Part shown: positions 25,056 to 28,017 of the stretch, in pieces | Position numbering within the stretch: position 1 is the stretch's first letter | Layout: every line of letters starts with the position of its first letter | Assembly: GCA_016938195.1 (NCBI GenBank) | Contig: JAFGVC010000106.1 | Coordinates: forward strand, 1-40,128 | Source of the DNA: Tissierellales bacterium | GTDB taxonomy: Bacteria; Bacillota; Clostridia; Tissierellales; Dethiosulfatibacteraceae | Direction of reading: 5' to 3' | Length of the DNA stretch: 40,128 bases | Notes under the pieces: generated by a model | Seen by the model: the letters and a program-made list of their open reading frames with translations, nothing else | The model's database searches: none | Told to the model about the DNA's origin: nothing | Translations under genes and position numbers: made by a program

Positions 25056-25892
25056 ATGAAAGGCATTGAAACAATAATTCCTTCTTTTGAAGATTATATC
25101 AGCATGGTTTTTACAGATTTTGAATCAAATTTCAAAATCTGTAAAAACCATGCTGATGAAGATGCCGTACACGATGTTAGAGTTGCTTTAAGACGTCTCA
25201 TCTCACTTGCATCATTTCTAGATTCTATAAATGACTCCTCTACTTTGAAGTCTTTTCGCAAAAGGGCTAAAAAATATCAAAAGCTCTTCAGTCCGGTTCG
25301 AGATGTTCACGTAACACTAAAATTCCTTGAGACGTCAAAGCTTAAGCAGTTTGAGGTATCTGATTTTATAAGCTATCTCCAAGAAATAAGGTCGGCTGAA
25401 GAAAAAAACCTTCTGCAAGCCTTAATAGAAACCAAAGCTTCCATCCTTATAAATTATAAAGAGGCTCTTCTAAATTCCGCTACGTCAGTATCTAGCGATC
25501 TCCAAATCGAAAAAAGGTTGCTTGTAGTGATTGACGATGCTTATCTCAATCTAATAGATAAACTCTTGAAAATTAATCCCAATCAGTTTGAGACCTTGCA
25601 TGCCGTTAGAATCGCGCTAAAGGATTTTCGCTATAAAATGGATATTATATCTCTTTCTAATATAGAATATCAGGCCATTGTGAATCATACGAAAAAGCTT
25701 CAGGATAATTTAGGAGAAATCCAAGACTTACGAGTCCTTATCCACTATTTCACACAATTTGACATAAATTCTGCTCATACGTCTAAAATTGACCCATTTA
25801 TCACCTGCCTGGAGGAAAACATCTCAAGCCTATCGCATGCTTTTTATAATCAACGCTTTGAAATCCACCAGCTCTGGGAGGTTACCACATGA
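25056..25892 (+). CDS. CHAD domain-containing protein
   Basis: This 278-residue helical CHAD protein carries the hallmark HDVRVALRRL near residues 42-51, and a second HAVRIALKDFRYKMD (about 187-201) in the C-terminal half. CHAD domains bind inorganic polyphosphate through conserved His and basic residues. No CYTH triphosphatase domain is fused and no such gene is adjacent. The ATG at 25056 is preferred over the in-frame TTG at 25038, though its ribosome site is weak. Bases 25098-25157 form a perfect 27-bp inverted repeat inside the gene (see findings). It overlaps pcm by 4 nt (ATGA). Confidence 0.88.
   Translation: MKGIETIIPSFEDYISMVFTDFESNFKICKNHADEDAVHDVRVALRRLISLASFLDSINDSSTLKSFRKRAKKYQKLFSPVRDVHVTLKFLETSKLKQFEVSDFISYLQEIRSAEEKNLLQALIETKASILINYKEALLNSATSVSSDLQIEKRLLVVIDDAYLNLIDKLLKINPNQFETLHAVRIALKDFRYKMDIISLSNIEYQAIVNHTKKLQDNLGEIQDLRVLIHYFTQFDINSAHTSKIDPFITCLEENISSLSHAFYNQRFEIHQLWEVTT
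25098..25157. repeat. Perfect 27-bp inverted repeat inside the CHAD gene
   Basis: Arms 25098-25124 and 25131-25157 are exact reverse complements over 27 bp with a 6-nt loop TCAAAT. The left arm begins ATCAGCATGGTTTTTACAGA. The arms encode residues about 15-34, just before the first CHAD motif. Such a match is far beyond chance. Confidence 0.95.
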
Positions 25893-26473
25893 ACACCAAC
25901 GACAAGATAAAAAAATATTTTTATAAATTGGATCGTCGTCTATTCTTAGATGCCTATAAAGAATCCTCAGAAATCGATTTGCCTTTACCAATCGGCTATG
26001 GACAAACCATTTCACAACCCTCGCTTGTTCTTGACATGACACTTATGCTCATGCCGGAGCCTCATCTAAGAACACTTGAGATTGGAACCGGTAGCGGCTA
26101 TCAAACCGCAATTCTATCAGAATTTTCTAAAGAAGTCTTTACAATAGAACGTATTTCTCAGCTTTATGAAAAGGCAAAAATCAGATTGGATGGATTGGGC
26201 TACCAAAATATTTATTATAAACTAGATGACGGCACGATGGGATGGAAAAGCTTTGCGCCTTTTGATCGCATCATGGTAACTGCCGCCGCTCGATTTATTC
26301 CTCCTGCCTTGACTGATCAGTTGGCTGTCAATGGACGAATGGTCATCCCTGTTGGGGGATCTTCCGGTCAAGAATTGCTACTGGTAACGAAAGCTGCCGA
26401 TGGTGTTATCAATACTGAAATAAAAGGATATGTTCAGTTTGTACCACTTATTGGAAAATATGAAACGCCTTAA
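25889..26473 (+). CDS. pcm: Protein-L-isoaspartate O-methyltransferase
   Basis: This 194-residue SAM-dependent methyltransferase repairs isoaspartyl residues in aged proteins. The N-terminal substrate region GYGQTISQPSLVLDMTLML (about 36-54) and SAM motif I LRTLEIGTGSGYQTAILSEF (about 60-79) are conserved. Further pieces are DDGTMGW, FDRIMVTAAARFIPPALTDQL and GRMVIPVGG. Length is slightly short for the family (about 205-220). Its ATG overlaps the CHAD stop as ATGA, so translation is coupled. It converges on the C-S lyase gene across a 4-nt gap. Confidence 0.95.
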   Translation: MNTNDKIKKYFYKLDRRLFLDAYKESSEIDLPLPIGYGQTISQPSLVLDMTLMLMPEPHLRTLEIGTGSGYQTAILSEFSKEVFTIERISQLYEKAKIRLDGLGYQNIYYKLDDGTMGWKSFAPFDRIMVTAAARFIPPALTDQLAVNGRMVIPVGGSSGQELLLVTKAADGVINTEIKGYVQFVPLIGKYETP

Positions 26474-27800: not shown

Positions 27801-27819
27801 GGCTTTAATTGAATTAAAG

Positions 27820-27970
27820 ATTTCAGGTGCCTTTTATAGGAGAATAGGGAATCGGGTTTAAATCCCGAACGGGCCCGCCACTGTAAGGAATAGTGCTTTT
27901 TATACGCCACTCCGGTTTAGGGGGAAGGCAAAAAGCATGTTAAGTCCGAGTCAGGAGACCTGCCTGAAAT
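27820..27970 (+). ncRNA. Cobalamin (adenosylcobalamin) riboswitch
   Basis: The terminal helix pairs TTTCAGG (27821-27827) with CCTGAAA (27963-27969). The conserved core includes GGGAATCGGGTTTAAATCCC, followed by the B12 box GCCACTGT. The 3' part has AAGTCCGAGTCAGGAGACC before the closing strand. It precedes cobT and is followed by a terminator hairpin, so binding of cobalamin should shut off cobT transcription. Confidence 0.95.
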
Positions 27971-28017
27971 GCATAATCTTTTTCTAAGCAAAAAAGAAAT
28001 ATGGTATGGACAATGGA

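Follow-up and report, generated by a model that had tools for sequence, protein, structure and literature searches.

Introduction

Template switching makes clustered mutations. At the thyA hotspot and in lacZ quasipalindrome reporters of E. coli, where quasipalindrome conversion is established, one arm is copied from the other, which leaves a perfect repeat with a short spacer (PMC7202029). Template switching is also documented in the coding genes of yeast, where the homogenisation of arms within coding DNA produces clustered amino-acid replacements, at the extreme five neighbouring ones (PMC8604942). The mitochondrial coding palindromes of Nematomorpha, which reach 284 bp, are perfect intragenic repeats whose two arms are both compatible with the protein family (PMC6649704), and RNA hairpins of template-switch origin have stems that were created or perfected in one step (PMC8794818).

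Here we describe a perfect palindrome within a CHAD-domain gene of a Tissierellales bacterium (assembly GCA_016938195.1), located in a 40,128-nt stretch of contig JAFGVC010000106.1 that is referred to as the window. The CHAD palindrome is similar to, but distinct from, each of these systems. In contrast to the E. coli quasipalindromes, the CHAD event is reconstructed from distant relatives only, with donor and ancestral states unobserved. Up to nine residues would be affected if it was a single event, as against the five of the yeast survey, and unlike the palindromes of Nematomorpha the repeat is 27 bp long and confined to one bacterial gene, with no genome-wide abundance. No RNA function is indicated for it, which sets it apart from the RNA hairpins. 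The kind of mutation is already known, and the CHAD palindrome is an unusually long and clean example. It is real and, within the sample, private to its lineage, and it is most likely a fossil of template switching in a working gene.

Results

The palindrome is located in the 5' part of a gene whose product matches the CHAD profile with 98.4 bits, compared with a curated cut-off of 25.6. Polyphosphate binding is known for the CHAD family (PMC6537752), and the product is probably a polyphosphate-binding protein. An AlphaFold2 model, calculated from a six-sequence alignment, has a mean pLDDT of 86.6 and a pTM of 0.85, with 10-residue blocks above 90 across residues 11–50. The top Foldseek matches of this model are the CHAD structures 6qva, 6qv5, 3e0s and 6qv7, with query TM scores of 0.65–0.73 for the first five matches, in agreement with the helical fold of solved CHAD structures. 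The first predicted helix (residues 11–31) covers both the left arm and the spacer and extends over most of the right arm. The CHAD stop codon overlaps the start of a gene for protein-L-isoaspartate O-methyltransferase (PCMT; Table 1). Further downstream, we note a cobalamin riboswitch (RF00174, window 27808–27981) just 5' of a phosphoribosyltransferase gene (PF02277, CobT-like).

A repeat search of the window and direct reading both bear out the claim of an earlier note that two exact 27-nt arms separated by a 6-nt loop lie inside the CHAD gene. The arms are 100% complementary, and together with the spacer the palindrome comprises 60 nt. The same note had placed the right arm just before the conserved HDVRV motif and, indeed, the residues encoded by this arm are followed directly by EDAVHDVRV. 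The arms share the reading frame of the CHAD gene and thus also that of one another, such that codon position 2 pairs with codon position 2, a register that corresponds to phase 2 as defined in PMC6649704. A near-repeat, TCAAATT/TCAAAAT, is present in the spacer and right arm (window 25120–25138), so that the spacer-proximal TTTGA of the left arm could additionally pair out of register with the spacer and might in this way have seeded a strand switch.

Table 1. Palindrome components and surrounding coding features, with positions given in window coordinates.
Feature	Position	Strand	Description
CHAD-domain gene	25056–25892	+	278 aa; PF05235, E 8e-28; ATG at 25056
Left arm	25098–25124	+	ISMVFTDFE, residues 15–23, within helix 1
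Spacer	25125–25130	+	TCAAAT, 6 nt; residues SN; N25 common to most relatives
Right arm	25131–25157	+	FKICKNHAD, residues 26–34; C29 identical in all six aligned family sequences
Conserved motif	25167–25184	+	VHDVRV, residues 38–43; 3' of the right arm
PCMT gene	25889–26473	+	PF01135, E 1e-50; overlaps CHAD stop

With loops of 3–20 nt allowed, the palindrome is the longest perfect hairpin in the 1,238,801 nt of host genome that were surveyed (1.24 of 2.50 Mb), the runners-up being 22 bp, and the sole hairpin of more than 15 bp inside coding sequence. An order-3 Markov null yields 32.8, 7.6, 3.8 and 0.8 hairpins of 10, 11, 12 and 13 bp per 1.24 Mb, a drop of approximately 2- to 5-fold per additional base pair that extrapolates to the order of 1e-8 at 27 bp. 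Hairpins of 16–22 bp are common between genes, as expected for terminators and operators. Among the 103 hairpins scoring at least 12 in the host's own and relatives' sequence, 14 fall within open reading frames of at least 120 aa, and apart from the CHAD palindrome none of these exceeds 15 bp. Two long hairpins within open reading frames were rejected as coding, namely those of 20 bp in L120 and of 19 bp in L094, both of which are located 5' of the apparent start codon. In L094 the hairpin contains a CIRCE-like operator and precedes an HtpG-like gene; operators of this type (TTAGCACTC/GAGTGCTAA) are found among the long intergenic hairpins at L094 6550–6594 and L135 9093–9143. A second truly coding hairpin, with 15 bp and a 3-nt loop, is located at approximately codons 11–22 of a gene that, judged by sequence only, is histidine ammonia-lyase-like (L051 16478–16510), and a 13-bp hairpin resides just 5' of the start codon of the same gene.

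Chance aided by composition could in principle produce such pairing, if a helix that is amphipathic and rich in Lys and Phe, encoded by an AT-rich genome, happened to be self-complementary in the antisense register. Pairing of position 2 with position 2 does place Phe, Val and Ile opposite Lys, Asn and Asp, and with the CHAD protein held fixed and the codon usage of the window, 18.0 of the 27 pairs are expected. The residual probability that all 27 form is, however, 1.4e-6; compatibility at all nine residue pairs is improbable in its own right (~6e-8 for random pairs), and in relatives whose helix is of the same kind, pairing is at the background level or little higher, which makes this explanation very unlikely. 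With 27 of 27 positions paired across a spacer of 6 nt, the repeat exceeds chance and has the form of a conversion product. Given the protein, perfect pairing that includes all wobble positions points either to a recent event or to maintenance at the nucleic-acid level.

Maintenance would be expected if the hairpin were a functional RNA or DNA element under selection that, for example, slows early elongation or alters the stability of the CHAD-PCMT mRNA. The RNA hairpin is very stable (-41.1 kcal/mol, z -13), sits at codons 15–34 and has every wobble position paired. Yet five relatives in which the CHAD-PCMT pair is retained lack it at the homologous register, and Rfam has no match at the stem. 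A terminator scan found no terminator-like site there, and an intrinsic terminator consisting of stem and U run was therefore rejected. The proposal that the mRNA hairpin limits translation finds no support at initiation, since the start region (-40 to +40) is not paired with the stem but folds separately at -7.3 kcal/mol, and the first base of the stem is located 42 nt 3' of the A of the ATG. Overall, we regard a selected element as unlikely, while the hairpin may have a mild effect on elongation or on the stability of the mRNA.

Five members of the same family share the CHAD-PCMT pair in synteny, namely Dethiosulfatibacter aminovorans, a Dethiosulfatibacter sp. MAG, a Clostridiales MAG, an Eubacteriales MAG and a Tissierellia MAG. 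Identity to these relatives is 60–71% for PCMT, but only about 33% for CHAD, with none closer than about 34%, indicating that CHAD evolves fast. In two further family genomes, both incomplete assemblies, PCMT is present without a CHAD match or an adjoining CHAD open reading frame, and the CHAD gene thus seems dispensable there. When genome and viral contigs were scanned with the CHAD protein, no closer relative emerged, and an alignment-based contig scan recovered the same five family members only. Searches across the order and class returned only more distant CHAD proteins, a plasmid collection gave no match, and none of the searches for CHAD relatives found a genome of the same genus. At the homologous register, the relatives pair at 8, 7, 12, 11 and 10 of 27 positions, compared with means of 6.3–7.4 for slid registers, and at ~33% protein identity they are too distant to reveal the ancestral sequence of the arms. 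Perfect pairing would thus have arisen after divergence, and within this sample the hairpin is private to the lineage of this genome.

The alignment of the six CHAD proteins is gap-free across residues 14–48, so that the palindrome replaced existing sequence and inserted none; the exchange was intragenic and of equal length. This bears on the in-frame insertion of a palindromic element, mobile or selfish, similar to those of Rickettsia. The palindrome is indeed in frame within a coding gene. However, a Rickettsia-type element would be an additional in-frame insert that is repeated in the genome, whereas here there is no insertion relative to homologues and no second genomic copy beyond short chance matches, and the palindrome measures only 60 nt. 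This candidate was rejected, and we consider such an origin extremely improbable.

To score the fit of each arm to the family, 9-mers drawn from neighbouring genes served as the null. The left arm, compared with the five relatives, outscores 99.2% of sense 9-mers (P 0.008) and 99.7% of antisense 9-mers (P 0.003), and the right arm 99.97% (P 0.0003) and 99.9%, respectively. Both arms therefore carry family signal. This contradicts the view that left-arm residues are free of family constraint; rather, these residues form part of helix 1 in the model.

The same scores weigh against a sequencing or assembly artefact, in which a fold-back chimera would have made the inverted copy, a caveat also raised in the earlier note. 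The host assembly is a draft of 194 contigs, and fold-back chimeras are known as an artefact of whole-genome amplification and long reads (PMC6218980, PMC12870357). A fold-back would, however, add or truncate sequence, whereas the length and frame of CHAD equal those of its homologues exactly. The model is confident across the arms, and there is no surplus of other long coding hairpins that would hint at a systematic artefact. As neither residues that fit nor a conserved length would be expected of a chimera, an artefact, while conceivable, is quite improbable.

The direction of conversion is less clear. The right arm is favoured as the donor by the invariant C29 and by its better DNA match to the nearest relatives, with 17 of 27 positions identical to L003 for the right arm and 9 of 27 for the left. 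The relatives L005 and L006, however, match the left arm better (11 compared with 7 of 27), which renders the direction ambiguous. Third-codon-position GC skew on the + strand is negative in genes of both orientations (-0.17 and -0.15). The leading strand is usually G-rich, and the leading nascent strand would therefore probably be extended leftward and copy the right arm before the left. Overall, the sequence comparison weakly favours conversion from the right arm to the left.

Discussion

Perfect pairing that extends to the wobble positions, absence of the hairpin in relatives and conserved gene length together fit quasipalindrome conversion. We consider it likely that one or a few short-range template switches within the lineage, probably from the right arm to the left, produced the palindrome as their footprint. 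During replication, the nascent strand would stall near the spacer and fold back, or jump strand, such that one arm templates the other, before rejoining its proper template; approximately 27 nt would be overwritten with the length of the gene unchanged. The product would survive because the antisense of one arm encodes residues that fit helix 1 of the fast-evolving CHAD protein. We infer the mechanism, its direction and a single as opposed to a stepwise event. A strand switch during replication, as the earlier note had suggested, is thus retained as the best explanation, with the direction it named weakly favoured, but its argument from an unconstrained left arm was wrong.

In one step, as many as nine residues could have been replaced, which exceeds the extreme of five in the yeast survey (PMC8604942). 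We tentatively propose, as a less probable version of the event, that a single template switch recoded a run of helix 1 residues, up to nine in a row, whereby phase-2 pairing turned a polar face into a hydrophobic one and the antisense peptide was accepted. The phase-2 exchange of hydrophobic for polar residues would explain how an antisense peptide can fit an amphipathic helix. Alternatively, the conversion may have been stepwise.

Long, clean and still-perfect examples of template switching in apparently working bacterial coding sequence are useful. Such cases show that positive selection is not required for several neighbouring residues to change jointly, and that a helix can keep its amphipathicity under phase-2 antisense pairing. 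The CHAD site provides a concrete locus at which the joint change of residues can be tested.
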